From IMG/VR virus record IMGVR_UViG_3300034374_002052, positions 1 through 24,330 of that record: a DNA stretch of 24,330 nucleotides. One strand, 5' to 3'. A program made the position numbers and the translations under genes. Origin of the DNA: a virus. Positions 523 through 24,330 of the stretch are shown here, piece by piece (the stretch's first letter is position 1; each line of letters starts with the position of its first letter). The notes under the pieces are model-generated. The model searched no databases, was not told where the DNA came from, and saw only the letters and a program-made list of their open reading frames with translations.

Positions 523-3500
523 TTACTGCAACGCCTGCTGCAAACGCTCGGCCTTTGTGATCGCCTCGTCCTCTGTCATTTGGACCTTGCTGTAATCAAC
601 GAGGTATTGCATCGACGCAGGGCTGCCGCTGGCTTCAAACGCCCGGACGGCCAGCATCATGTAGTAGTCATGGAGCCGCTTCACCAGCTGCGAAGCAGGT
701 CTCCCCTTGCGCTCCCTGTCCGGCAGTGAGACCACCCGTGGGTCCTGGGACAGGGCCGGGTCTGCCTCCAGAGCCCTGTACTCCTTGCTCTTGAAGAGCT
801 CATTCAATGCCCCGCGCAGGTTCCTGCCCCTCGTCACCTTGCTGAGCAGTTCCTTCATCCCGCCTTGGACTCGGATCTGTTGAGATGCGCCATCAACATC
901 GAACTTGTAAGTGATAGCGACATCACCAGTCGAGAACTCATCAGAGCCATAGCCGTCGCTCACCACTTCGCCCAGGTGGCGATTGAGCTGCTCCGCGCCA
1001 TCAACATCAATCGGAACACCCTTGACGGTGTTGTTCAGCAAGGGCGTGGGCGGCTGAAGCATCCCCATGGATTCGAGCTGGTTCTCGACAAGGAACTCGC
1101 CTTCCCCTGCCCGCCAACCAACCCAGCCATTGGGCCATTCACCGGCCAGCATCTGCGGGAATGGACGAAGCGGTTGACCCAGGTAGGTCTGCTTCCGCAC
1201 CGGGATGCCAGCGGCCCAGTAGGCCAGGGCGGGCTGTGACTCATAGGTCAGCTGACGCATCACATTCCATGCGGTGTTCATGGGATGGTCAGGGCCGAGC
1301 CTGGGCTCCAGCATTCCCGCATCGCCCCTGAGGGCAAACATCTCGGGTCGCTGGATGTCGAAACGACCAATGCCGAGCCCTGCCTCTGCATCACGCATCC
1401 CACCCGAAAGCGGATTAAAGGCTGTGTTGCCAAGGAACGACGCAAACCTCATAGCTGCCTGAGGTGTCCTTTCGTTCACCACCTCGATCAACTGCTCAAT
1501 GGTCTTGAGGCCAGGTGTGCGCATGATCTGAGCAGCGACCAAGGCCAGGGTGTCCCCAGCCAAGGCATTCATGTCGCCATTGCTCATGACTTGATTGCGC
1601 ATCAAATCCCAGGCATCGCTGTAAAGAAACAGCGTGTTGAGCAAAGGCAGCCCACCCAAGGGAACACCAAAGATCGAGTTGGGCTTCTGCCCCTTGGATT
1701 CAAGGTTGCGATACCACTGCCGCCGCTTTTGAGGGTCAATAGGCCCACCGCCAATGATTGCCCCCATGCTCTTGAGGGTCGCAATGCCGCCCAGGAGCGA
1801 CAGCGCCATCACGGTGGATGCCTGAGCCTTGGCCATCTGCTCTGGCGTCGCATCCCGTCCCGCCCGGGCGACATCCGCCAGCCTGAATACTGCATTGATG
1901 GGCTCAGCCCCCAGGGCCCAGTCCCACACCTGCGAGTTGAATGGAGAGCGCCAGAACGACAACAGCGCATCAAACGACTCATGCCGCCTGAGCCCCTGGA
2001 CGGAGTTGTCGATTGCCCGGGCGGCTGAACCCTCGGGTTGCTTGCCCTGCATCCGCTGGTCGATGGATGCGGCCATGGCATTGCCAGCCCCCTCGAAGCC
2101 CATCACCGGCTCGCCAACATTCTCAAGGGCGATCTTTTCAGCAATCATGTCGTCGCTGATCTCGTGACCAATTGAGAACTGATCCCGATAAGCCTTGATC
2201 TGTCGATCGGTTGGGTTGCTCTTGTAGAGCATTTCATCCAACTGGGGAATGACCGCTTCACGCCATTCCTTGAATGTCTTGTTCGGGAACTCCTTGGCCT
2301 GCTTGATCATCAAGTCATTGGCCATGACCGTCAGGAAGATCCTCATCCCTTGGCGGTTGTCCACGGCCTGCATCATCTGCAATGAGCTGAAGACAGGAGC
2401 GGGGCCAGCGTTGATCTTGTTGAGCAGTGGGTTCAGGGCGTATTGATTACCCAGCAGCTTGAGGCTGAGATGAAGCTTGTTGCGCAGCATCAATGCACGA
2501 CCCACAGGGCCGCCGGTGAATGGCTCCCGGAGGTAGTCAGCAGCTGCCTTGTATTGCTCCTCGACCGACATCTGCCCAGCGTTGTTGTTGAAGCTGTCGA
2601 TGTTCCGAGCGAAGGGCGTGTCAGACCCAAAGAAGCCATCGCTGATCGCCTTCTTCCATGACGCTGCTTTCTTTTCAAGTCCCCTGAGGTGCATGAACTC
2701 CGCCTGCACCACCTGCTCGGCCAGGTTGCTGGCAGTCGCTGCAATACGCCAGCCATCCAGCTGAGCCTTGAACATGTTCCGGGCAAAGCCATTGGCGTCT
2801 GGGTTGAACAACCCCAACTGCCTGTTGTCGCCCTCCAGTAGGCGCCAGGGGTTTGCTTGTGCCTGACGGATCCCTTCCGCCAGAAAGACCAGCTTCTGTG
2901 AGATGTAGTTCGACACCAGCTGGGTACGGGTGTTGAACAGGACGGTGTCCTTGTAGCCAGCACGGGCCATGGCCATATAAGTGCGCTTCCACCGTTCACC
3001 CTTGAGGCCGCTGTCTGGGTCAACGCCATCCAGCACCAACGTCTTCTGGATTTCGCGCATCTGCTCAACACCTTCCTTGCCTTCAATGGCGGCCTGTACG
3101 ACCCGACCGGTCACGCTGTCATTGGCGACCAGATCAGCGGGAGTGTTGGGCACCATCTCGCCGGTTACCGGGTCGGGCTTACTCGTGAGGTCTTCAGCCA
3201 CTGCCTTGGCCACCTCATCGAAATTGGCCTTCTCGACATTCCAGACATCAAAGGTCATGTTGCGCCAGTTCTGAAGCAACTGGCCGGAACGCCTGGACGC
3301 AAAGCTGCGCATCTGGTGCGCATGGATTGCCAGTGCATAGCCCTTGAGGAACTTATCCAGCTGCTGCTTTGTCGGGGCCTTCCCCGTGGCTTCCATCACA
3401 TCAGCCAATTGACCCACGACATTCGCCAGACGCACGCGGGTGACATCCGCATAAGCCTGCAGTCGGGCCTGATTGACCAGCAGGTTGTAGAAGGGCTCGC

Positions 3501-3933
3501 CATTGCGCTTGATCGCTTCGGCTACCTGATCCGCCTCGATGTCGTAGCCAGCCTGAGCAAACGACTCCGACATCTCACGCTCAAAGACATCCTTCCCGTG
3601 GATCTGCAGGTACTCCTGGTAGGAGGTGGGATCGCTATCGATCCATCCCTTCTGCAGGCCAATCAGATCAGCCCCGGCCAATGGCGCCGAACTACCAAGC
3701 ACCTTGTCGAGCTGCTTGAAGTTGGTCGGCTGGCCCTCCGCTCCCTGAGGCGTGGCACTGGTTTCAATCAACGCCTGCGCTTTTTCCAGCCGCCCCTCGG
3801 CATTGTTCAGCCAATCACCAAGTGGATTGCTGTTTGGCCTGGCAATCTGCAGCATCTCCCGACGCGCCTGCTCCAGCTGTTCACGCTGTTGGAGTGCGGC
3901 CTGGCGCTTCTGGAACAGTTCATCGCATTGCAT
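523..3933 (-). CDS. gp16-like internal virion / DNA ejection protein (1136 aa)
   Basis: This large, mostly helical protein follows the 1658-residue gene with a 1-nt gap (TGAAATG) and directly precedes the tail fibre, which is the position of T7 gene 16. Residues 1-60 are charged and coiled-coil-like (RQAALQQREQLEQARREM). The middle (about 310-560) is long amphipathic helix. Residues 706-729 (STVMALSLLGG...MGAIIGG) and 755-770 (FGVPLGGLPLLNTLFL) are hydrophobic, Gly-rich segments of the kind that form the envelope-crossing ejection conduit. From memory, the region from about 650 to 900 resembles the C-terminal half of large ejection proteins in marine podoviruses. T7 gp16 is 1318 residues and starts with a lytic transglycosylase domain; I see no such domain or catalytic Glu motif here. 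The expected role is to assemble inside the capsid and be ejected to help DNA cross the cell envelope. Placement and general role are well supported; the mechanism is inferred. Confidence 0.72.
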   Translation of the reverse strand: MQCDELFQKRQAALQQREQLEQARREMLQIARPNSNPLGDWLNNAEGRLEKAQALIETSATPQGAEGQPTNFKQLDKVLGSSAPLAGADLIGLQKGWIDSDPTSYQEYLQIHGKDVFEREMSESFAQAGYDIEADQVAEAIKRNGEPFYNLLVNQARLQAYADVTRVRLANVVGQLADVMEATGKAPTKQQLDKFLKGYALAIHAHQMRSFASRRSGQLLQNWRNMTFDVWNVEKANFDEVAKAVAEDLTSKPDPVTGEMVPNTPADLVANDSVTGRVVQAAIEGKEGVEQMREIQKTLVLDGVDPDSGLKGERWKRTYMAMARAGYKDTVLFNTRTQLVSNYISQKLVFLAEGIRQAQANPWRLLEGDNRQLGLFNPDANGFARNMFKAQLDGWRIAATASNLAEQVVQAEFMHLRGLEKKAASWKKAISDGFFGSDTPFARNIDSFNNNAGQMSVEEQYKAAADYLREPFTGGPVGRALMLRNKLHLSLKLLGNQYALNPLLNKINAGPAPVFSSLQMMQAVDNRQGMRIFLTVMANDLMIKQAKEFPNKTFKEWREAVIPQLDEMLYKSNPTDRQIKAYRDQFSIGHEISDDMIAEKIALENVGEPVMGFEGAGNAMAASIDQRMQGKQPEGSAARAIDNSVQGLRRHESFDALLSFWRSPFNSQVWDWALGAEPINAVFRLADVARAGRDATPEQMAKAQASTVMALSLLGGIATLKSMGAIIGGGPIDPQKRRQWYRNLESKGQKPNSIFGVPLGGLPLLNTLFLYSDAWDLMRNQVMSNGDMNALAGDTLALVAAQIMRTPGLKTIEQLIEVVNERTPQAAMRFASFLGNTAFNPLSGGMRDAEAGLGIGRFDIQRPEMFALRGDAGMLEPRLGPDHPMNTAWNVMRQLTYESQPALAYWAAGIPVRKQTYLGQPLRPFPQMLAGEWPNGWVGWRAGEGEFLVENQLESMGMLQPPTPLLNNTVKGVPIDVDGAEQLNRHLGEVVSDGYGSDEFSTGDVAITYKFDVDGASQQIRVQGGMKELLSKVTRGRNLRGALNELFKSKEYRALEADPALSQDPRVVSLPDRERKGRPASQLVKRLHDYYMMLAVRAFEASGSPASMQYLVDYSKVQMTEDEAITKAERLQQALQ

Positions 3934-3934
3934 T

Positions 3935-6900
3935 TCAGCAGCCCTCCTTGGCGGCGGTTTTCATCAGAGCTTGAGAGTTAAACCAGACCTCCTTGCTGGC
4001 TTGGTCCAAATACTCAGCCAGTTTTATAGGGTCGTTGTCGAGTCCCCAGAGATCTAGGAACTCATTGCGTGACTCTTTATCCGCTATCGTGCCAAGCGTT
4101 CTGTCCATCAAGCGCTCTTTGCGGCCAGGGGGCGCATTCAAAGAACGCAGCAATCGCTTTGCATTGTAGATCTTGCGGCGGTTTGCCATTCGGCCTGAAT
4201 AGGCCCGCTCATAAACATCCTCAAGCGTCTGCCAGCCGCGGCCATTGACGAAGTTTGTAGCGGCCTCCCAAACATTGAAAAGCTTGAACATAAGCTTCTC
4301 CCAGGCATTTGCGGCATCACGGCCAAGCGCCTTGATGAGCACGTCGTAATCACGCTCTGGAAGTTCTATCCCTTGTTTGCGAGATTCACGCGATAGATGG
4401 TAAGCATCTATGCCGGCATTCCTCTGCGCCGCAGGCACCACACCCTCCTTTGGTCTGCGCTCCAGCCTTCTCATCCTGGCGTAGGTCTGGAATGCAATTG
4501 CCTGCCTTTCAATCGATGCCTTGTTGTCAAGCCTGTCGAAAAGAGGCATCAGATCATCAATCTTTGCTCGCGCAAAGGCTGTATTCAATACGGCCATCTC
4601 CTTCCGCGTCAGGAACTGCATTTGGAGTCGATGCCAGGACTCATGCCACATCGTTTCGTACAACTCAAACTTTGGGGAGTCGAGAACGCTGAAGACTTCC
4701 ATGACATCTTCAACCGGCTTGTACCACCCGCCTGCAAAGCCGACATCACCGGGCTTGCCACCATGCACCTCCGGGACCTGCATTGGGGGCGATTGCCAGA
4801 AATGCCCCTTGAAACGATCACCCATGTCGTGGCCAGTAATCCGCTTGACCTCCCTCTCCATTGCAGCAATCAGCTTTTTCGCTTCCTCAGGAGTACGGAG
4901 CTTCTCTGTCCCCTCGCCAGCGGCAGGGGCCATGCTCATCAGGGGTTGATCTGCCCTGCCTGCATCGAAGGGGACTTCATCAACCTTGATCGCCATTGAA
5001 CTCTGCGGAGCACGACGACTGCCGGTCTGGCTTTCAACCGTGTCGCCAATAGCTTTCTTGACTTGCTCGCCGTGCCTACGAACAGCGTCAATATCGAATC
5101 CCTTGGCCTCAAGGCTGGCGACAATCTGGTCCTCTCCTTTCGACTTCTTGGCGCTGCTGCGGATGATGTAAGCCGCACGATCTAGGTCATTGCCGAACTC
5201 CAGGGTTGCCATGCCAAAACGGGGCTTGGACTTAGCGACATCAGCCGGTAGCTGATAGGCAGGAGCTGTGCTCGTCGGGGGTTGATCTGCCCTGACTGCT
5301 GATCCCTGCGGAGGCTGATCAACGCCATAGAACTGCTTGTAAGCATCCGCCACCGCATCTGTCGCGGCAGTCTTCCTGCCAATTGCACGATCATTTAGGG
5401 CCTGGTCGATGTCGATCCCAGGCACCTGCGACACATCAAGCAGGCTTCCCTTTGCCCTTACAAGTGCTTCAGCCTGGGCATCGCTCTTGATCAGATGCTT
5501 CTCAGGCGGAAGCATGTAGTTCGCCCAATTCATCAGCTGATTGGCCTTGGTGGGAACCCTGCCCTCGTTCTTTCTGGTGATCGCTTTGACGGCCTTCGCG
5601 GGGAACTCAATCCGCGACGCTTGGGGTGCGCCAAGCGTCAAAGATGTCTTGCCGTCATAGGCATCACCAAGGACCCGCTTGAAAAGCTTCTGCCTTGATG
5701 GAGTTGTTGGGTCGATGAAATACTTGCCACCTGGCAGGCGTTGCTTGAGTGAATCCCAGGCCGAAGAAAGCAAACGAGCTTGCTCTGTTGCGCTCAATGC
5801 CTTTAGGGCTGCATCATCAATGCCCAGCTCCAGCAATTCCTTGCCGGTCAGTTCAGCAAGATCGGGGATCTCCAGAACCCATTGGCCGTTATCCAGTGAA
5901 CGACTGAACCTGAAAGGCCCCCATCCCGTCTCCTCCACCTCATCGTTGGCCAGGTCGTCCACAAGGTCGGCCACTGTCCCGGGCTCTTCCTCCGGGAACT
6001 TCTCCATCAGGCCGTTATCAAGCTGTTCCTCCAGCGGCTGGTCATAGAAGCCTTCGTCTTCCCTGACCTTCCTCGCGGTTTCGTTTTCAACCAACGCATC
6101 ACGGGCTGCGTATTCCTCCGCCAGGCGGACCTCCTCACCAAATGCAGCCTGCGGGTTCTTGCTCAGGTCTTCCAGTGACGGGGCATTGCTACCTGGATCC
6201 GACGGGGGGATTTCTGTTGTGCTTGGTCGAACCTCTCTGTTCTTGATGGCCTTCCTGACGATCTCCTTCTTGAGCTCATTGCGGTCCGCTGCAGTCAGCG
6301 TTGATTCAGGGCGAGCGTCGTCGAGATCGTTGGGCTCTATGGGCGCAACGTCTTCATCAAGAACCTTCGGGGTAGGGGCTTCAATCTTCTCCCCAGCACT
6401 GGCCACCTCCCGTGCAATGCGTTGAGCGACAACACCAGGCTTTGCGCCATTGGCAATCTCCTCAGTCGCTTGGTTCAGCATCTGACTGAGCGTCGTGCCC
6501 TCTGCGTATTTATCGGCATCGAAGTTGCCCAGGGCGGCTTCAGCTGCAGCGGCGGCCTGCTGAGCCCTGCTCTGGTCAACCTGGGTGCCAGCACCTTCAA
6601 GCTTGGTTGCTGCCTTGTCCTTGCTGACCCTCTTGAACAATGACTTGTTGCTGGTCAACTCCGCTCGGACACGAGCAGCCAAGTCGGCCTTGATCTCAAT
6701 CGTGTCGAGCGTCTCCGCTCCAAACAGACCCATCTGGTCAGAAGCCACCGTCGGGGCAGTCCTGGCCATATCGACCATTTCCGACAGCTGAGCATCACTG
6801 ATGTTTCGCCCAGAAAGGCTGTTCATCAAGCGACCCATCTGCTCAGGATCAAGCCCGCTCTTGCCCAGGGTGATGGCTTGATTCAGCGGCAACCGACCGG

Positions 6901-8911
6901 CTACTGCGTCATCAAACAAGTTGGGCGGCAGTTTGCTCAGAGCAAAGCCCGCATCAGCCAAGCCGGACTTCAGTGGCAGGCCAGCTTGCTTCAGCTGCTC
7001 TGGTGTTTCAAAGCCCCGCTCGCGGATGAACTTGGCCGCATCAAATGGAGTGCCAGCCCCCTGGCCAATGTTCTTGATGGCGCCCATCGCACGGGCTTGC
7101 TCAGCTGTTCTGGCAGTGAGAAAATTCACCCGAAGGCTCGGGATCCCCATCTCCTTTGCCTTGGCGAGACGGTTGTGGCCATTGACCACGTAAAGCTTTC
7201 CGTCCGCCGGGTCTTGCCACACATCAAGAACATCCTCCAGGTCGGTGTTCCAGCGCTCCAGGCCAGAAAGGGATTGCCCCTTTTGAACGCCTTTCTCTGA
7301 AACGCCCTGCTTGAACTGGAACCGCTCGGGATCCACGGAGATTGCATTCACATCAGCAATCGCCAGGCCCTGGGGATCGACACGGCTGGGAATGATCTGA
7401 ATGCCCTCGGTCTCAGCCAGTGCCTTCAAGCCAGCAAGAACATCCTTCCTGGTGAACTCGTCGAAGTCCTTGCCCGTCATGACGGACACCTTCTGGAACA
7501 GCTGCTCGCTGTTGTCCGGGTGCGCTAGCGACAGCAGTTGGCTATTAGGGAATGCCTCGAACTGTTCGATATAAGGCGTGGTGGGCTCCGCCAGGTTTCC
7601 GCTGGGCGCCGATCCTGTCGCGACATTGACAGGGACAAGCTCCGGCTTAACAGCGAGCTCTGCTTCAAGCGCCGGGTTGATGGCTTCCGCCTGAGCAACC
7701 CGCTCCAGGGCTTCGTTGTCGAGCTGATCAGCTGCCCGGACAGTGGTATCCACCTCGGGAACTTCTGGATCCCACGGATCAGCCTTCGGGTCCGCCTCCG
7801 GCAGCTTGCCCTCAAGGACAGCCCCGCCCGGCTCCATTGGAGCAGTAGGGATGCCAGTCGTTGCCTCGGTGTAGGAAGCGCCAACGTCATCCAGTGTCTT
7901 GCGAGCTGGTTGCGCCGGCTCTCCAGGCTGATCGGCATCAGGCGCAAACTCATAGGTTCCGTCTTCGTTCTTGGCCTGAAGACCGTTCTGCTCAGCCCAG
8001 TCCCGCGCCTCCTGCACCTCCCGCTGTGCCTGTACTTCCCGTGTACGACGGGATGCATTCGGCAGCAGGCGGTTGATGCCACGGGTGGTTAAATTCACCC
8101 CCAGCTCAAGGCCCCCGCCCACCACTGCACCAGTGGCGATATTGCCCGGCAATGTGCGGGCTGCTGCCTGCCAGATGTTGTCACCCGGCTGCACCTGGAG
8201 CGGATTATCCGGGAACAGATCAGCGATGCTGCCATTGCGGTAGGGATCACCCAGAAGGGATGAAATGCCTTCCTCTGCAGCAACTGCAGCAGACCACTTG
8301 ACTGGCGCCTTGGATGCCCTCAGCGCCCCTTGGGCCCAGGCGGGCAGCCTGCTGGCAATAGGCACAAGCCGGGCTTTGGCCGCAGCAGCAGTTGGGCCAA
8401 GCGCCGAACCAAGCCCGCCAGTGAGCAGTGTCGACACCCCGGTCTCGGTGACGAACATGCCAAAGGCTTGAGTCCTCTTGGCATCTGGATTGGTGATTAG
8501 CTCGTCCTCTTTCGGGACTCCGAGCATTCCGGCGGTGGCATCAACAAAAGCCCGCCTGACTGTCTGCCCACCAGCCCCCTCTAGGTACTGCAGCGGCTGA
8601 GAGATCGCCCGGAAGGTGCCCTGCTGTGCATTCAGCTGGCTGGGAGTATTGCCGACAAGCCTTCCATTTGGCGCCCTATAAACCGTTTCGCCTTTGCGCT
8701 GGAAGCCCTGCGACTGATAGCCGGCATCCATGCGCCGGATGCTCCGCACCAGCGCGCGTGGTTCCTTCGTTAATACGCGTGTCCAGTAATTCCATTCATT
8801 CCCTGGGTTCCTCAGGAAACGCCCCCACCGCATCCCAGGCTGCTGCTTCTCGGCAGGAGGAGTCGCGACAGGAGCCAGCTCTTCCTGCGTGAGAGCGCGG
8901 AGCTGAGGCAT
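3935..8911 (-). CDS. Giant multidomain internal virion ('polyvalent'-type) protein with ParB-like and HExxH metallopeptidase motifs (1658 aa)
   Basis: The ATG at 8911 begins a 1658-residue protein between the gp15-like and gp16-like genes. Residues 150-275 hold Gly/Ala-rich hydrophobic stretches (TLLTGGLGSALG, GAVVGGGLELGV), as in ejection proteins. Residues ~500-640 look like a ParB/sulfiredoxin-fold domain: VDPERF (526-531), then DGKLYVVNGHNRLAKAKEMG (570-589) with the GHNR signature. Residues 735-1000 are acidic, Ala/Glu-rich and low in complexity. Residues 1231-1290 form a compact module (FGMATLEFGNDLDRAAYII) that I recall in other marine phage proteins. Residues 1423-1427 are HESWH, a zinc-metallopeptidase HExxH, and IERQAIAFQTY (1467-1477) may supply the third ligand. 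Two linkers repeat RADQPxxSxAPA (1207-1218, 1319-1330). Such mixtures are typical of phage polyvalent proteins, which are thought to be packaged and injected against host systems. Virion location follows from the neighbours; the enzyme activities are predictions from motifs. Confidence 0.7.
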   Translation of the reverse strand: MPQLRALTQEELAPVATPPAEKQQPGMRWGRFLRNPGNEWNYWTRVLTKEPRALVRSIRRMDAGYQSQGFQRKGETVYRAPNGRLVGNTPSQLNAQQGTFRAISQPLQYLEGAGGQTVRRAFVDATAGMLGVPKEDELITNPDAKRTQAFGMFVTETGVSTLLTGGLGSALGPTAAAAKARLVPIASRLPAWAQGALRASKAPVKWSAAVAAEEGISSLLGDPYRNGSIADLFPDNPLQVQPGDNIWQAAARTLPGNIATGAVVGGGLELGVNLTTRGINRLLPNASRRTREVQAQREVQEARDWAEQNGLQAKNEDGTYEFAPDADQPGEPAQPARKTLDDVGASYTEATTGIPTAPMEPGGAVLEGKLPEADPKADPWDPEVPEVDTTVRAADQLDNEALERVAQAEAINPALEAELAVKPELVPVNVATGSAPSGNLAEPTTPYIEQFEAFPNSQLLSLAHPDNSEQLFQKVSVMTGKDFDEFTRKDVLAGLKALAETEGIQIIPSRVDPQGLAIADVNAISVDPERFQFKQGVSEKGVQKGQSLSGLERWNTDLEDVLDVWQDPADGKLYVVNGHNRLAKAKEMGIPSLRVNFLTARTAEQARAMGAIKNIGQGAGTPFDAAKFIRERGFETPEQLKQAGLPLKSGLADAGFALSKLPPNLFDDAVAGRLPLNQAITLGKSGLDPEQMGRLMNSLSGRNISDAQLSEMVDMARTAPTVASDQMGLFGAETLDTIEIKADLAARVRAELTSNKSLFKRVSKDKAATKLEGAGTQVDQSRAQQAAAAAEAALGNFDADKYAEGTTLSQMLNQATEEIANGAKPGVVAQRIAREVASAGEKIEAPTPKVLDEDVAPIEPNDLDDARPESTLTAADRNELKKEIVRKAIKNREVRPSTTEIPPSDPGSNAPSLEDLSKNPQAAFGEEVRLAEEYAARDALVENETARKVREDEGFYDQPLEEQLDNGLMEKFPEEEPGTVADLVDDLANDEVEETGWGPFRFSRSLDNGQWVLEIPDLAELTGKELLELGIDDAALKALSATEQARLLSSAWDSLKQRLPGGKYFIDPTTPSRQKLFKRVLGDAYDGKTSLTLGAPQASRIEFPAKAVKAITRKNEGRVPTKANQLMNWANYMLPPEKHLIKSDAQAEALVRAKGSLLDVSQVPGIDIDQALNDRAIGRKTAATDAVADAYKQFYGVDQPPQGSAVRADQPPTSTAPAYQLPADVAKSKPRFGMATLEFGNDLDRAAYIIRSSAKKSKGEDQIVASLEAKGFDIDAVRRHGEQVKKAIGDTVESQTGSRRAPQSSMAIKVDEVPFDAGRADQPLMSMAPAAGEGTEKLRTPEEAKKLIAAMEREVKRITGHDMGDRFKGHFWQSPPMQVPEVHGGKPGDVGFAGGWYKPVEDVMEVFSVLDSPKFELYETMWHESWHRLQMQFLTRKEMAVLNTAFARAKIDDLMPLFDRLDNKASIERQAIAFQTYARMRRLERRPKEGVVPAAQRNAGIDAYHLSRESRKQGIELPERDYDVLIKALGRDAANAWEKLMFKLFNVWEAATNFVNGRGWQTLEDVYERAYSGRMANRRKIYNAKRLLRSLNAPPGRKERLMDRTLGTIADKESRNEFLDLWGLDNDPIKLAEYLDQASKEVWFNSQALMKTAAKEGC

Positions 8912-8952: not shown

Positions 8953-11316
8953 TCAGGTCACGCGATACCAGTCGTTGAGCCTCGCCAGCCTGCTTAACCC
9001 ACGCCCCTCAAGCGACGCCGTGGCGATTGAGTTGGTCATCAGGGACGTAGACGCCTGGAGCCTTTTCTTCATCCGCTGGTACTCCTCCGTACTCCAGTCC
9101 CACTTGTAATTCGGGTATTGGCGCAATTGCGCATCCAGAAAGACAAATGGATCTGCCACTCGCGCTTCGTTCATCAGGCGCCGCAAGGGCGCCGGGATCT
9201 GGTAGCTGGGATTCTTTACAAGGTTGAAAACAACATTCCGCAGTGAGGCCAGGTCAATCACTGCTTCTTTCTGGTAAGCCAACGCCCTGGCGCGACGATT
9301 CGGCATGTTGTCTAGCTCGTGAACCATGTACACCGGCTTCTGGGCCAGGTTCTGGCGCTTGGTGGAGGTGGATGGCGCATTCGTCTGCTGCGACACGGGA
9401 GGCTGTTGCTGAGTTTGCTGCGAGCGACGACGGGCGGGGTTCACAGATGGCAGGGCATTGGGGTAGTTGCTGCCTGGGTACAGGTAACGCCGGTCCTTGT
9501 CCTCCTCTGAGTTCTGGCCGTATTCATTCATCGCCCGCGCAGCGACCTCCTTCGCTTCGGCGGCAGTCAGCTCAGCCCCTTTCTTTGCTTGCGCGGCAAT
9601 CAGTCGATCTTCAATCAACTTCTCAAAAGCAAGCTGCTGTCGGTATTTGCTGGCAGCAATGCTCGCCTGGTCGTTCCCAAATGGGTAATAGGTCTGGATG
9701 TTTTGGTTGACCCTTGCTGTGATCTGGTTTCTGATATTCGGGAATGAGTCCATCAACTCCTTGCCTTCAAATGCCTGGTCGATCTTGTTCTTGGCCTGGC
9801 GGTAGAACTCATTGCCCTGGGGGCCCATCCGCTCAACAGCCTCGTTTAAGCGGTCAAGCTCCTGTTGCCTAGAGCCCAGCCCCCCATCGACCTCACGCCT
9901 GTCGAACTCCTGCTCCCAGACCAACCCCGCATCAGGCTCGAAATTCTGCTGATACAACCTGGCCTCGCTCTCCATCAGCGCAGGCAATTCACGACGCAAG
10001 CGGCTGACAGTCGTTGCGTCAGCGCCGTTCTGGGAAGCCCATTCGGTCAATGCCTGGAATGCCGCCTCCGTACGGGCACGCCCAGGGGGCATCGCAGTGA
10101 TCCTGTCAGAGATATAAACCTCGGCCGACTGCCTTTGCTGGTTGTACTGGAGCTGCTGCATCTCCCACGCAGCCTTGCCGTACTTGATCTGTGAGTCGAT
10201 GGAATCCTGGGCGTAGGCATTGCCCATCGGCAGCATCTTGATCTGGCCGGTCGGGTACTTCATCACGTTCCCCTTGGAATCACGCATCGGGATCGTCGAA
10301 GGGATGTCATCAACAAACCGACGAAGCTCTGGGTTCTGCTGGAAATCAGCCTGAGCTATCAGGATCTTGTAGGTCTCTGCGTCCCACTTGCTGCGCTGCC
10401 CCGGCAGGCCAGCCCTCAAGCCAAATTCGTTATTCAGCTGTGCTGCCTTCCATGCCAATGCCTTGGTAAATGACACCGGATCATCAGCACGGCTATAAGT
10501 GAGCTGCTGCCCTGCAATCTCGACATCAACCTGCCCCGACTGATAAGCCGTCTGTAAAAGCTGGCCGATGGCATTGGCCTGAATGCGTGGGGCATTGTCG
10601 TCAAACCACTGGGTGCGGTCTTTTGCCAGGGCGGCATAGGCCGCATCACTGCCTTTATTGATGGCAGGCAATACATTCGTCTGGAAGCCAGGGTCATTAC
10701 GGCTGTAGCCGTATTGCTCCATCAGCTGGTTGACCTTTGCGGCCTTGGCTTTCTCCAGCGCAGATGCGCCCATGTCGGGCGACAAGTACACCTCAGGCGA
10801 CAAGCCACTTGCCACCTGGGCGAGCTCCTGCTTGAGCTTTGCCCCCAACGCCTTGGAGATACCCCGCTGGAAACCCATCCGCTGGAATGGGTTCATCTCA
10901 TTCATCTGCACGCCAGCCGCCGGGTCCTTGGTGGCAAGCGAGCGGTTGCCAGCGGCATAGTCATTGGCCGCGGCATCCAACAGTCGGTCGTTATTGACTG
11001 CAGCACGCTGTGCAGCCTCCAGTGCCTTCTTCTCGCCTTCATCCATCTGCCAGCCCGCATAGGCGACAGCTCCCATCGACAGGGACTGCCCCAAGGTCGG
11101 CGAGAAATTGCTCAATGCACTGGCCAGGTCCTGCGCTGAATTGCGCCCCTGGATGCTGCCAACGCCAGCGGTTTGCACTGTGCTGACGCCCTTCACCCCC
11201 GGCAGTGATGCCGGCTGGCCTGGTCGCTGCACTTGGTAATCAATCGGCCTCAGAAACGCATCAACGCCCTGGGCAGCAGGGTTGATCTGGCCGGTGGGGA
11301 GTTCCTGTGGCTTCAT
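8953..11316 (-). CDS. gp15-like internal virion protein (787 aa)
   Basis: At 787 residues this is close to T7 gp15 (747), and it lies directly after the gp14-like gene with an ATGA overlap (11316-11313), so translation is probably coupled. The N-terminus (PTGQINPAAQGVDAFLRPID, residues 7-26) has the Pro-rich opening I associate with gp15-like proteins of marine podoviruses. The rest is Ala/Gln-rich and predicted largely helical, with no enzymatic motif visible. A Gln/Ser/Thr-rich low-complexity segment (RRRSQQTQQQPPVSQQTNAP) lies near residue 640, followed by a basic C-terminal region. In T7, gp15 forms the middle of the inner core stack and then part of the channel through which DNA enters the cell. 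The assignment rests on length, order and composition rather than on a signature motif, so it is good but not certain. Confidence 0.7.
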   Translation of the reverse strand: MKPQELPTGQINPAAQGVDAFLRPIDYQVQRPGQPASLPGVKGVSTVQTAGVGSIQGRNSAQDLASALSNFSPTLGQSLSMGAVAYAGWQMDEGEKKALEAAQRAAVNNDRLLDAAANDYAAGNRSLATKDPAAGVQMNEMNPFQRMGFQRGISKALGAKLKQELAQVASGLSPEVYLSPDMGASALEKAKAAKVNQLMEQYGYSRNDPGFQTNVLPAINKGSDAAYAALAKDRTQWFDDNAPRIQANAIGQLLQTAYQSGQVDVEIAGQQLTYSRADDPVSFTKALAWKAAQLNNEFGLRAGLPGQRSKWDAETYKILIAQADFQQNPELRRFVDDIPSTIPMRDSKGNVMKYPTGQIKMLPMGNAYAQDSIDSQIKYGKAAWEMQQLQYNQQRQSAEVYISDRITAMPPGRARTEAAFQALTEWASQNGADATTVSRLRRELPALMESEARLYQQNFEPDAGLVWEQEFDRREVDGGLGSRQQELDRLNEAVERMGPQGNEFYRQAKNKIDQAFEGKELMDSFPNIRNQITARVNQNIQTYYPFGNDQASIAASKYRQQLAFEKLIEDRLIAAQAKKGAELTAAEAKEVAARAMNEYGQNSEEDKDRRYLYPGSNYPNALPSVNPARRRSQQTQQQPPVSQQTNAPSTSTKRQNLAQKPVYMVHELDNMPNRRARALAYQKEAVIDLASLRNVVFNLVKNPSYQIPAPLRRLMNEARVADPFVFLDAQLRQYPNYKWDWSTEEYQRMKKRLQASTSLMTNSIATASLEGRGLSRLARLNDWYRVT

Positions 11317-12122
11317 GGCGTGGCGAGTTTCTTGATGTTGGCGTAAGTGTTAATGCCGGTATTAAGTCCACCCAACAGAGCTCCGAAGCTGCCGACAACA
11401 GCGCTAGCGGGGCTTGGCGCGGCTCCAGTCATGCTTGGGCCTGCTGGTGTCACCATCGACGGCAGCGGCGGGAATGGCATCACAGGCTGCTGGATTGGTT
11501 GCCTGATGTAGAACTGCTGACTGTTGTACTTGTTCAGGTAATCAGTGACTTGGCCCAGCTGTTGCCTGCTGTATTGCCTACTCATGATCTTTTCATTCAC
11601 CGCCTGGATCGCGTTGTAATCACCCACCTGCTTGGAGAAGTTCCGCACATAACGGTCCATCGTCTTGCCCTCCTGCGCTCCCGCCTGATAGGCAGCAGAT
11701 GCCTGCAACGCCCGGTAGGCATATTGCTGCTGCGCAACAGCTGCCTGCATCCCACGCTCCGCATAGGCCGCCTGGATGGCTTCCGAATTGACGATGTAAT
11801 CAGCCCCGGCTGAACGCCGTGCCTCCATCACCCGTGTCGCCTGGGCAATCTCCTTGGCGAACTCGTAGTTGTTCAGCTGTCCGGCATAGGCGGTTTGCTG
11901 GTTGTAATTAACCGTCTCGGCCCAGTATTGATATTGATTGTTCAGGTCGCGAGTCCTGGCGTTGAAACCCGCCTGCCAATTGTTGAACTCGACTTGTGCT
12001 GCCTGGAAGGCGCTCTGATTTAGGTAGTCCTGCCGCTGGCCCATGTAGCCAAAGACTGAGCTGGCAAGCCCCGTGATGGCCTGGCCGCCGCCAGCGAGCG
12101 CTGATAGCGAAATTGGATCCAT
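11313..12122 (-). CDS. gp14-like internal virion protein (269 aa)
   Basis: I place the start at ATG 12122 because a GGAGG lies 8 nt upstream and the ATG overlaps the stop of the preceding gene (TGATG). An in-frame GTG at 12131 would lie inside that Shine-Dalgarno sequence. The protein opens with DPISLSALAGGGQAITGLASSVFGYMGQ, a small hydrophobic helix typical of gp14-like proteins. A long Gln/Ala/Tyr-rich helical body follows (residues ~20-200), then Pro-rich linkers (QPIQQPVMPFPPLP) and a second Gly/Ala hydrophobic helix near the C-terminus (SAVVGSFGALLGGLNTG). T7 gp14 is 196 residues and forms the outer-membrane part of the ejection channel. The order (after gp13-like, before gp15-like) supports the same role here. 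Direct sequence identity to T7 gp14 is not obvious by eye. Confidence 0.72.
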   Translation of the reverse strand: MDPISLSALAGGGQAITGLASSVFGYMGQRQDYLNQSAFQAAQVEFNNWQAGFNARTRDLNNQYQYWAETVNYNQQTAYAGQLNNYEFAKEIAQATRVMEARRSAGADYIVNSEAIQAAYAERGMQAAVAQQQYAYRALQASAAYQAGAQEGKTMDRYVRNFSKQVGDYNAIQAVNEKIMSRQYSRQQLGQVTDYLNKYNSQQFYIRQPIQQPVMPFPPLPSMVTPAGPSMTGAAPSPASAVVGSFGALLGGLNTGINTYANIKKLATP

Positions 12123-12565
12123 CAGCTGCACCTCCAGAAACGACGAAACAATGCCTTGGCGTAACCGTATGGCTCAGGCACATCGACCGTAAAGCCAAGA
12201 TGGCTCAGCCATTTGGCCGAACGCTCGTTCTTTGCGTACACATAGTTGTACAAAGGGCCGAGCTCTTCAACACAGACATCAACCCACTGACGGCCAACAA
12301 CTGCCAGCTGCCATCTGTTCCTGGCGGTCTCAAGGAGTCGAGGGGTGCCCAACATCCAAACCCTGCTGCCATTCACTCCACACATCCCGCAGGGCTCACC
12401 GTCTTCTGTCTCAAAGGCAGCGACGCGCCTGCTGTTGACGTAACTAGAAACAACTGCATCAACTGGCTGGACGCCATGACTGAGCGCAACTTCCTCGGCG
12501 TCCTCTTTCCTGAGGTTGTACCCGATGTAATAGGCAACCTCCATGGTCGGCGTCATCCACTTCAT
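12122..12565 (-). CDS. gp13-like protein with degenerate GNAT acetyltransferase fold (147 aa)
   Basis: This small gene sits between tail tubular protein B and the gp14-like gene, overlapping the first by ATGA (12565-12562) and the second by TGATG. GGAG lies 6 nt upstream of the start, which supports it. The C-terminal part YNYVYAKNERSAKWLSHLGF (residues 106-125) matches the final strand-helix of GNAT-fold proteins and lines up with T7 gp13 (LWNYVWVGNTSHIRFLKTIG, from memory). T7 gp13, internal virion protein A, is 138 residues and is needed for proper assembly. The acetyl-CoA-binding R/Q-x-x-G-x-G/A loop is not visible, so catalysis is doubtful and a structural or assembly role is likelier. 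Confidence 0.75.
   Translation of the reverse strand: MKWMTPTMEVAYYIGYNLRKEDAEEVALSHGVQPVDAVVSSYVNSRRVAAFETEDGEPCGMCGVNGSRVWMLGTPRLLETARNRWQLAVVGRQWVDVCVEELGPLYNYVYAKNERSAKWLSHLGFTVDVPEPYGYAKALFRRFWRCS
12131..12135 (-). promoter_or_regulatory. Shine-Dalgarno sequence fixing the gp14-like start
   Basis: The minus strand reads GGAGG here, 8 nt before ATG 12122. This chooses that ATG over the in-frame GTG at 12131. The site lies inside the last codons of the gp13-like gene. Confidence 0.75.
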
Positions 12566-23157: not shown

Positions 23158-23568
23158 TCACTGAGGATCGACCAACATCACCTCACACAGCCAGCCAATG
23201 CCGCCACCGACATCACCGCTGGAAACTGCCAGCTGGTCACCCTTCTTGTACGCCTGGCCTCCGTTCTGAATCACTTCCATCACCAGCTTCCCGCCCTGGA
23301 CGACGAAATCAGCTGTCGCAAATAACCCCGTCGCACTGCCGGTATCGACCAAAGACACGTTGCTGTACGGACCCCCCGAATAACCCGAACCCTCGTTCAA
23401 CACACGCACCTCGACAATCGAGCCAATGGCATTCGTCAGGCCAGGGATCGACAAGTTGTCATTACCCGTCGCAATCATTGCCTGGATCACCTTGTCCGTA
23501 TCCACCACCGAAGGTCCCTGCAACCGCAGCTTCTCCCTCTGGGGACTTGTCAGATAAACCAATGGCAT
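23158..23568 (-). CDS. Small beta-rich, Gly-rich protein, probably structural (136 aa)
   Basis: After a short N-terminal helix (TDKVIQAMIATGN) the protein has two related beta units: VEVRVLNEGSGYSGGPYSNV (residues 52-71) and VMEVIQNGGQAYKKGDQLAV (96-115). The pattern V..V.I...G.GY..G....V recurs in many structural and adhesin proteins of marine phages, where it builds elongated beta domains. The gene lies 40 nt before the large terminase and after an intrinsic terminator. A GGGAGG lies about 17 nt upstream of the start. Possible roles are a capsid decoration or tail-associated protein. I do not recognise the family exactly. Confidence 0.62.
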   Translation of the reverse strand: MPLVYLTSPQREKLRLQGPSVVDTDKVIQAMIATGNDNLSIPGLTNAIGSIVEVRVLNEGSGYSGGPYSNVSLVDTGSATGLFATADFVVQGGKLVMEVIQNGGQAYKKGDQLAVSSGDVGGGIGWLCEVMLVDPQ

Positions 23569-23664: not shown

Positions 23665-24330
23665 TTAAAGGCTATCAGGCGGGGATTGTTCCCTCCAGCG
23701 TGCAACCCTCTCGGCGTTGGCCTTCTTCAGTTCAGCCCTTCGCTCTGGCGAGATGTCCTTGTTCCATCCAAAGGGCTCGGCAGTCCGTCCATTGCGGCCC
23801 TTGTGCGCTCCAGATCCTTCAGTTGCGCATACTGCCTCCTGTCTTCTGGCGTACCCGTCCAGCACGTGCTGAGGTACGACAGGCTTGCCTTGATCTGCTC
23901 CATCGGCGGCACAGGCATCCCGTATTTGGTCGAGCGCTCTCTGCCAGCTCTTTGCGTCTCCTGGCGACTGAGGCGCTGGTAGTTCAAGCGGGTCATAGCT
24001 GTCGTGATTGGTTTTGTTTGGCCGTGCCTGCTTCCGCCCTGACGGGGGACCCATCACCTTGATTGCATGCCTCTGGGCTTCCAGCATCTCGGGGTGCGTG
24101 ATCCGATAGCTGGCCTTTGAGCTCCCCTTGCCCGTAGGCAGGTAGCCGTTGTGCTGAATCAGCCCTGCATCAAGCAATCCATTGATCGCTTTCAACACAG
24201 TGGCCTTGCCCAGGTGCAACTTGTCAGCAATCCCCTTGTGACTCCACTTGGTCGTTCCGCTGTTCCCGTTCTCGTCGTCATGGTGGACCCAAGCCGAATC
24301 CCACAGGAAGACGTAAACCAGCAATGCGGT
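23665..24330 (-). CDS. Winged helix-turn-helix DNA-binding protein (start beyond window edge)
   Basis: The frame stays open to the right edge. The first possible start inside, TTG 24324, is preceded by in-frame Thr and Ala codons, so the true start is probably outside. At least 219 residues are visible. Residues 26-57 (counted from the TTG) form a winged helix: KWSHKGIADKLHLGKATVLK, then INGLLDAGLIQ, and a wing ending with KASYRI (70-75). This is the fold of phage replication initiators and of GntR- or MarR-like regulators. The C-terminal half is basic and disordered, ending in a helix ELKKANAERVARWREQ. It may control or initiate replication, or regulate genes. The upstream context that would tell is missing. 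A terminator directly follows, so it belongs to a separate transcription unit from the virion genes. Confidence 0.68.
   Translation of the reverse strand, partial: TALLVYVFLWDSAWVHHDDENGNSGTTKWSHKGIADKLHLGKATVLKAINGLLDAGLIQHNGYLPTGKGSSKASYRITHPEMLEAQRHAIKVMGPPSGRKQARPNKTNHDSYDPLELPAPQSPGDAKSWQRALDQIRDACAADGADQGKPVVPQHVLDGYARRQEAVCATEGSGAHKGRNGRTAEPFGWNKDISPERRAELKKANAERVARWREQSPPDSL

Follow-up and report, generated by a model that had tools for sequence, protein, structure and literature searches.

A giant polyvalent-type protein as a probable front part of a gp16-like ejection protein in a marine T7-like virus

Introduction

Among the described systems closest to the locus reported here are the gp15/gp16 ejectosome of phage T7 and the polyvalent proteins known from phages and conjugative elements (Iyer, Burroughs, Anand, de Souza and Aravind 2017; PMC5512222). 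The locus belongs to a 24,330-nucleotide stretch of a marine T7-like virus (IMG/VR record IMGVR_UViG_3300034374_002052, positions 1 to 24,330; this whole stretch is called the window below), and holds a gene for a 1658-residue protein, here called X (3935..8911, minus strand). An earlier sequence-only reading had described X as a polyvalent-type protein, inserted in this genome between counterparts of T7 gp15 and gp16, and had predicted that it is packaged and enters the cell with the DNA. The polyvalent class as such is already known, and the closest relative of X, from MedDCM-OCT-S31-C1 (BAQ94395 / A0A6S4PA15), is already named 'Large polyvalent protein associated domain-containing protein' in UniProt. 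Large genes of this kind were left unannotated in the genome paper on the MPP-C cyanophages (PMC9860041), and the P-SCSP1u structure paper (PMC10575957) mentions neither cysteine, nor disulfide, nor ejectosome.

Here we describe two features that the earlier reading had missed and that appear to be new: X and the gp16-like protein occur as a single chain in related phages, and where they are separate they carry a conserved pair of terminal cysteines. The explanation that best covers the whole, and that we consider fairly probable, is that X forms the front, cargo-bearing part of an ejection (internal virion) protein, which in related phages is synthesised together with gp16 as a single chain. 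The literature searched, with incomplete coverage, held no report of a split or fused ejection protein or of a terminal cysteine pair, and no paper on point concerning cysteines or disulfides in ejection proteins.

Results

X and gp16 form one chain in related phages

In Prochlorococcus phage P-SCSP1a (MPP-C) and in several contigs, the slot of X is filled by a single chain of 2259-2633 residues. In profile comparisons, the full-length fused proteins aligned with X over 456-1260 (E 3e-92) and with gp16 over 1370-2334 (E 1e-14, with another comparison giving E 1.6e-19 over 907 columns); since the fused chain matches X and then gp16, in the same order, the two are one protein in these phages. 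The fused proteins also matched internal virion protein D (E 4e-40), and the gene that follows in P-SCSP1a encodes a fibre (T7 gp17 match, E 3e-14). An insertion peculiar to this genome, as read earlier, is not supported: a large group of T7-like phages regularly carries the extra gene, which in the sister arrangement makes up the N-terminal part of gp16 itself.

The genes of 1079-1103 residues that follow this slot in P-SCSP1a and P-SCSP2 were considered as gp16 candidates and rejected, that of P-SCSP1a on account of its fibre match and that of P-SCSP2 because it shares 42% identity with the P-SCSP1a fibre. The latter gene, PSCSP2_00031 (L004, 15444-18755), has been proposed as a possible internal virion protein (PMC9860041); given its identity to the fibre, the preceding gene 00030 is a better candidate. 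In one fused protein (L134, 4782-12680), residues ~1620-1760 form an insertion in the gp16 part that looks ADP-ribosyltransferase-like by eye (GKGVYFTTNP).

The gp16-like protein of the window (523..3933, minus strand; 1136 residues) is likewise related to the internal virion protein D encoded by isolated phages (hhalign, E 8e-23). Its relatives are internal virion protein D of CRP-114, CRP-227, ProddE and S-TIP28 (phrog_6651) and gp16 of P-SSP7, and the gp16-like partner in phage S-SRP02 matched CRP-227 and ProddE by tblastn. An X gene was found neither in T7 nor in the isolated phages that bear these relatives. The label of a gp16 counterpart given to this neighbour earlier is consequently supported by homology to internal virion protein D, with no detectable relation to T7 gp16. 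Neither the gp16-like nor the gp15-like family profile gave a convincing E-value against solved structures.

Lone cysteines at the two ends in the split form

For the split form we used a set of 65 distinct cassettes on viral contigs in which the X gene lies directly before gp16. In the window, the only cysteine of X is its last residue (Cys1658; 3938..3940, minus strand), and the only cysteine of the gp16-like protein is residue 3 (Cys3; 3925..3927, minus strand). All 65 X proteins have a cysteine at most 4 residues from the C-terminus, which in 61 is the sole cysteine. The gp16 cysteine lies at most 7 residues from the start in 64 of the 65 as listed; the 65th protein has a 43-residue N-terminal extension, and its lone cysteine has moved to position 46. 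Since splitting and the cysteines count as one event, the weight of this pattern lies in its conservation across gp16 proteins that are only about 20-42% identical to that of the window. In the structural models, the X chain closes with a helix and then Gly-Cys, and the gp16 chain opens with the cysteine, after which a helix begins. Two relatives (L052, 10382 onwards, and L053, 8977 onwards) encode gp16-like proteins with an extra Gly/Ala-rich hydrophobic N-terminal segment of about 43 residues before the conserved lone cysteine.

Cysteine is otherwise nearly absent from these proteins, with 70 in the 89,065 residues of the pooled X proteins and 6 in the 50,643 residues of the gp15 pool, as compared in the window to 14 in the 586-residue terminase and 6 in the 867-residue nozzle. 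None at all is found in gp15 and gp16 of T7, gp15 and gp16 of P-SSP7, the 2571-residue fusion of P-SCSP1a, or a 3912-residue protein of a Ruegeria phage. Such avoidance would fit proteins that unfold and cross the periplasm, and in proteins of this kind two cysteines that are kept stand out. Two observations, this scarcity of cysteine and the fusion with an internal virion protein that occurs in nature, lend indirect, sequence-based support to the predicted virion and ejection role of X.

Cysteine content was also noted in other phage proteins. T7 gp14 (L011, 5729-6319) and gp14 of P-SSP7, P-SCSP1a, P-SCSP2, CRP-114, CRP-227 and ProddE start with Met-Cys and have no other cysteine, a further instance of a single cysteine at one end of an ejection protein; in the split clade, gp14 lacks cysteine altogether. 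Internal virion protein D of the Desulfovibrio phage ProddE (L256, 6358-10164) has three internal cysteines, unlike its relatives from aerobic hosts; possibly cysteine avoidance is relaxed in this phage of an anaerobe. Giant polyvalent proteins of other phages (2000-4900 residues; L003, L086-L090, L170-L181 and others) contain zero to five cysteines, and four other ParB-bearing proteins of 1167-1573 residues (L074, L084, L096, L103) contain 11-14 each.

Modular build of X

The frame of X is uninterrupted from ATG to stop, and it is a real gene, as a homologue with 42-47% identity over most of its length stands in the same place in MedDCM-OCT-S31-C1; the gene described in the sequence-only reading is thereby borne out. 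The two proteins align end to end save for a 232-residue module (X 977-1208; 5288..5983, this and the X features below on the minus strand) that is missing in S31-C1 and sits at other positions in other X proteins. No Pfam match reached the curated cut-off in X or its close relatives, so its domains were identified via family profiles and folds, the latter in an AlphaFold model of residues 460-1658 (mean predicted local distance difference test score, pLDDT, 70.7, and higher in the domains).

A Gly/Ala-rich N-terminal part and an acidic linker, assigned by composition, make up residues 1-499 (7415..8911). Residues 300-470 contain 20% Asp and Glu, and across the two acidic stretches, 300-470 and 800-980, the share is 20-23%, in agreement with the long acidic linkers described before. 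In 40 of the 65 X relatives a hydrophobic stretch lies among the first 480 residues, with no such stretch further on; the X of the window itself falls below the threshold used.

Residues 500-791 (6539..7414), or 515-717 when delimited more narrowly, form a ParB-fold domain with nucleotide-binding and helix-turn-helix parts. A profile of 30 sequences matched solved ParB proteins (E 0.003), the region in the model matched ParB, Noc and KorB structures (Foldseek E 9.4e-5; Z 10.5), and a G-H-x-R motif is conserved, the family check consisting of the general ParB fold plus this motif. A match of residues 512-791 to PHROG 21 ('portal protein') was rejected as a sign of a portal, since what is matched there is the ParB part of a family of composite make-up. 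The ParB region of X is also homologous to part of the 3912-residue protein of Ruegeria phage 45A6, a classical polyvalent protein that also carries helicase, methyltransferase (MTase), acetyltransferase (GNAT) and LPD38 domains.

The second catalytic segment (residues 1333-1579; 4175..4915) is a predicted zincin-like metallopeptidase of the HExxH...E type, judging by motif conservation and fold. Its zinc-binding motif HESWH (residues 1423-1427; 4631..4645) and Glu1468 (4508-4510), a candidate third zinc ligand, are conserved: H1423, E1424, H1427 and Glu1468 (H94, E95, H98 and E139 of the A8 alignment) are invariant in 31 aligned relatives, and HExxH is present in 32/32. The best fold match was to the lethal factor metallopeptidase domain (Z 7.8), followed by IrrE/PprI (Z 6.7). 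A Z below 8 is weak by itself, but it is consistent with the motif and with the placement of polyvalent metallopeptidases in the same superfamily by Iyer et al. (PMC5512222).

Between these two domains lies the DLDxAAYII module (residues 1214-1304; 5000..5272; pLDDT about 90), a conserved unit of ~90 residues found in 118 open reading frames, some of more than 4000 residues. Its profile matched PDB 8fre over 48 columns (E 1.8e-5), a match that was not used for any reading.

Both segments expected to be catalytic thus found counterparts in the fold search, and the ParB-like, HExxH and DLDxAAYII elements named in the earlier reading were all recovered. As X combines two biochemically unrelated domains in one chain, stands beside late virion genes and shares a domain with an established polyvalent architecture, it is, by its sequence, a polyvalent-type protein.

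The order gp14-gp15-X-gp16 recurs on 65 or more distinct viral contigs, among which the C-terminal modules of X vary, and the ParB region was found in 399 stretches in IMG/VR. A region of ~105 residues that we call AnchX (residues 870-975 in the X of the window; 5987..6304) is common to 64 of the 65 split-type X proteins, including those that lack ParB; ParB itself is present in 53, DLD in 33 and the peptidase in 31. Because the modules after AnchX may be present, absent or reordered, X looks, at the level of sequence, like a frame with exchangeable cargo.

Setting in the late operon

The late operon, of T7 type and on the minus strand of the window, reads terminase, head-tail adaptor, scaffold, capsid, tail tubular A, nozzle, gp13-like, gp14-like, gp15-like, X, gp16-like, and beyond the 3' end of the gp16-like gene one more gene is cut off by the window end. 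X therefore sits in the ejection operon, as described earlier, and lies between a 787- and an 1136-residue gene, downstream of capsid, adaptor, nozzle and gp13-like genes; the arrangement is that of the cassette conserved in the 65 contigs. The gp15-like gene (8953..11316; 787 residues, no cysteine) keeps its earlier label only by position and size, and its N-terminal 225 residues are common to S37C6, S38C3 and S-SRP02. The gp14-like gene (11313..12131; 272 residues, no cysteine) has homologues in the same place, and the gp13-like gene (12122..12565) matches phrog_308 ('internal virion protein'); these three genes are also on the minus strand. Upstream of the terminase gene we noted an O-like replication-initiation protein (23665-24330) and a small gene (23158-23568) with weak baseplate/fibre-type PHROG matches, an order unlike that of T7.

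Discussion

From the fused relatives and the cysteine pattern we infer that X is coupled end to end to gp16: one clade joins the two in a single chain, and in the other a terminal disulfide probably does so. X would be packaged beside gp16 in the head and would travel with it through the tail. The lone cysteines would pair as an X-gp16 disulfide, probably after lysis, outside the reducing cell, and the reducing cytoplasm of the new host would then cut this bond and free X. The ParB domain might subsequently bind and/or cut DNA or a nucleotide, and the metallopeptidase might either release segments of X itself or cut a host protein. That the cargo is tied to the channel-forming ejection protein by one terminal disulfide, formed in the virion, cut in the host cytoplasm and taking the place of the peptide bond present in the fused proteins, is put forward tentatively, at somewhat less than an even chance.

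Several points weigh against this account. The gp16-like protein had no profile or fold match to T7 gp16, and its model, of only moderate confidence, gave no fold match. In the ParB tree the fused and the split forms make up one clade each, which leaves a single evolutionary contrast as the basis for connecting the split with the cysteines. Homotypic disulfides or a metal site would give the same cysteine conservation. Finally, the AAGGAGG of the gp16 gene (3943..3949, minus strand), its probable ribosome-binding site, lies inside the end of X, and 44 of the 65 cassettes have the X cysteine codon at position -8 relative to the start of gp16.

A doubtful but serious alternative is that X is a structural or maturation protein and not an effector, its metallopeptidase acting in assembly, a role proposed for P1 DdrB, and its ParB fold only binding the packaged DNA. 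Processing of P1 DdrB before packaging was described by Iyer et al. (PMC5512222), and as some X proteins lack ParB, DLD and peptidase, the shared core of AnchX and cysteine end may be the structural part. However, variation falls on the modules that one would expect to work in the host, the catalytic residues are invariant, and the related ParB region belongs to a multi-enzyme polyvalent protein of the classical kind.

It is rather unlikely that X is ejected and coupled to gp16 but that the two lone cysteines fix oligomers instead of linking X to gp16, each bonding with its own kind (X-X, gp16-gp16) or binding a metal on the symmetry axis of the core. In favour are the lone Cys2 in gp14 of T7 and many relatives, with no partner cysteine elsewhere in the core proteins, and an expected conservation that is the one observed; against it, the cysteines are placed at just those two ends that run into each other in the fused relatives, whose chains contain no cysteine.

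The overlap with the ribosome-binding site raises the possibility that the C-terminal cysteine of X is a by-product of that site and of translational coupling (GGAGG-N-TGC-stop-ATG), with the gp16 cysteine alone, or neither, being of importance. The overlap, in which AAGGAGG covers the last X codons, explains the conserved E/G-G before the cysteine, but not the cysteine itself. Indeed, the latter is retained in another register (GGSC, GRAC) and with 1-3 residues after it (GGCGT, EGCSL, GGCALP), and it is encoded by both TGC and TGT. The gp16 cysteine has no Shine-Dalgarno sequence nearby and follows the protein, not the start codon, when the 43-residue extension is added, and X and the gp16-like protein are otherwise free of cysteine; a by-product thus seems quite improbable. 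For a related reason we rejected the C-terminal '-GGC' as a packaging tag, as its glycines belong to the gp16 ribosome-binding site, which leaves the cysteine unexplained. That X stays out of the virion and acts late in the infected cell is very improbable, given a cysteine content as low as in known ejection proteins, against 14 in the terminase, and the fusion to the internal virion protein D family.

The relation of X to gp16 explains the large genes left unannotated in the MPP-C genomes, and the proposed coupling bears on how phages keep giant injected proteins in the head, draw them through a narrow tail and release them in the cell. Comparison alone singles out two residues in two named proteins, which makes the proposal testable on the isolated phage S-SRP02. 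This phage was isolated on Synechococcus SR-C1; its X (1016 residues) ends in GGSC, and its gp16 (1094 residues) has the cysteine-bearing peptide MADCNDLNQQ. Scarcity of cysteine, with zero in the 3912 residues of one multi-enzyme polyvalent protein, may also mark proteins that cross the envelope with phage DNA.

Compared with known systems, the S31-C1 protein is the nearest to X, sharing its place, its ParB-DLD-peptidase order and its terminal cysteine, and differing in the module at 977-1208. The P-SCSP1a protein PSCSP1a_00021 (2571 residues; PMC9860041) has its ParB, DLD and peptidase regions ordered as in X, but is joined to the gp16 part in one chain, has no cysteine and is directly followed by the fibre gene. 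Internal virion protein D of CRP-114, ProddE and S-TIP28 and gp16 of P-SSP7 are homologous to the gp16-like partner over their C-terminal ~600 residues; they differ in their N-terminal ~550 residues and have no cysteine pair. The T7 ejectosome has no extra gene and no detectable sequence relation to the proteins described here, and T7 gp16 carries an SLT transglycosylase domain at its N-terminus for which the gp16-like protein of the window gave no Pfam match, but gp15 and gp16 resemble their counterparts in gene place, in size and in being nearly cysteine-free. With the polyvalent proteins of Iyer et al. (PMC5512222), X shares the assembly of several unrelated domains, ParB-type and zincin-like among them, in a long phage protein beside late virion genes, as well as the predicted injection with the DNA; what sets it apart is its place in a T7-like ejection operon, its probable nature as a detachable front part of gp16, and its single end cysteine.
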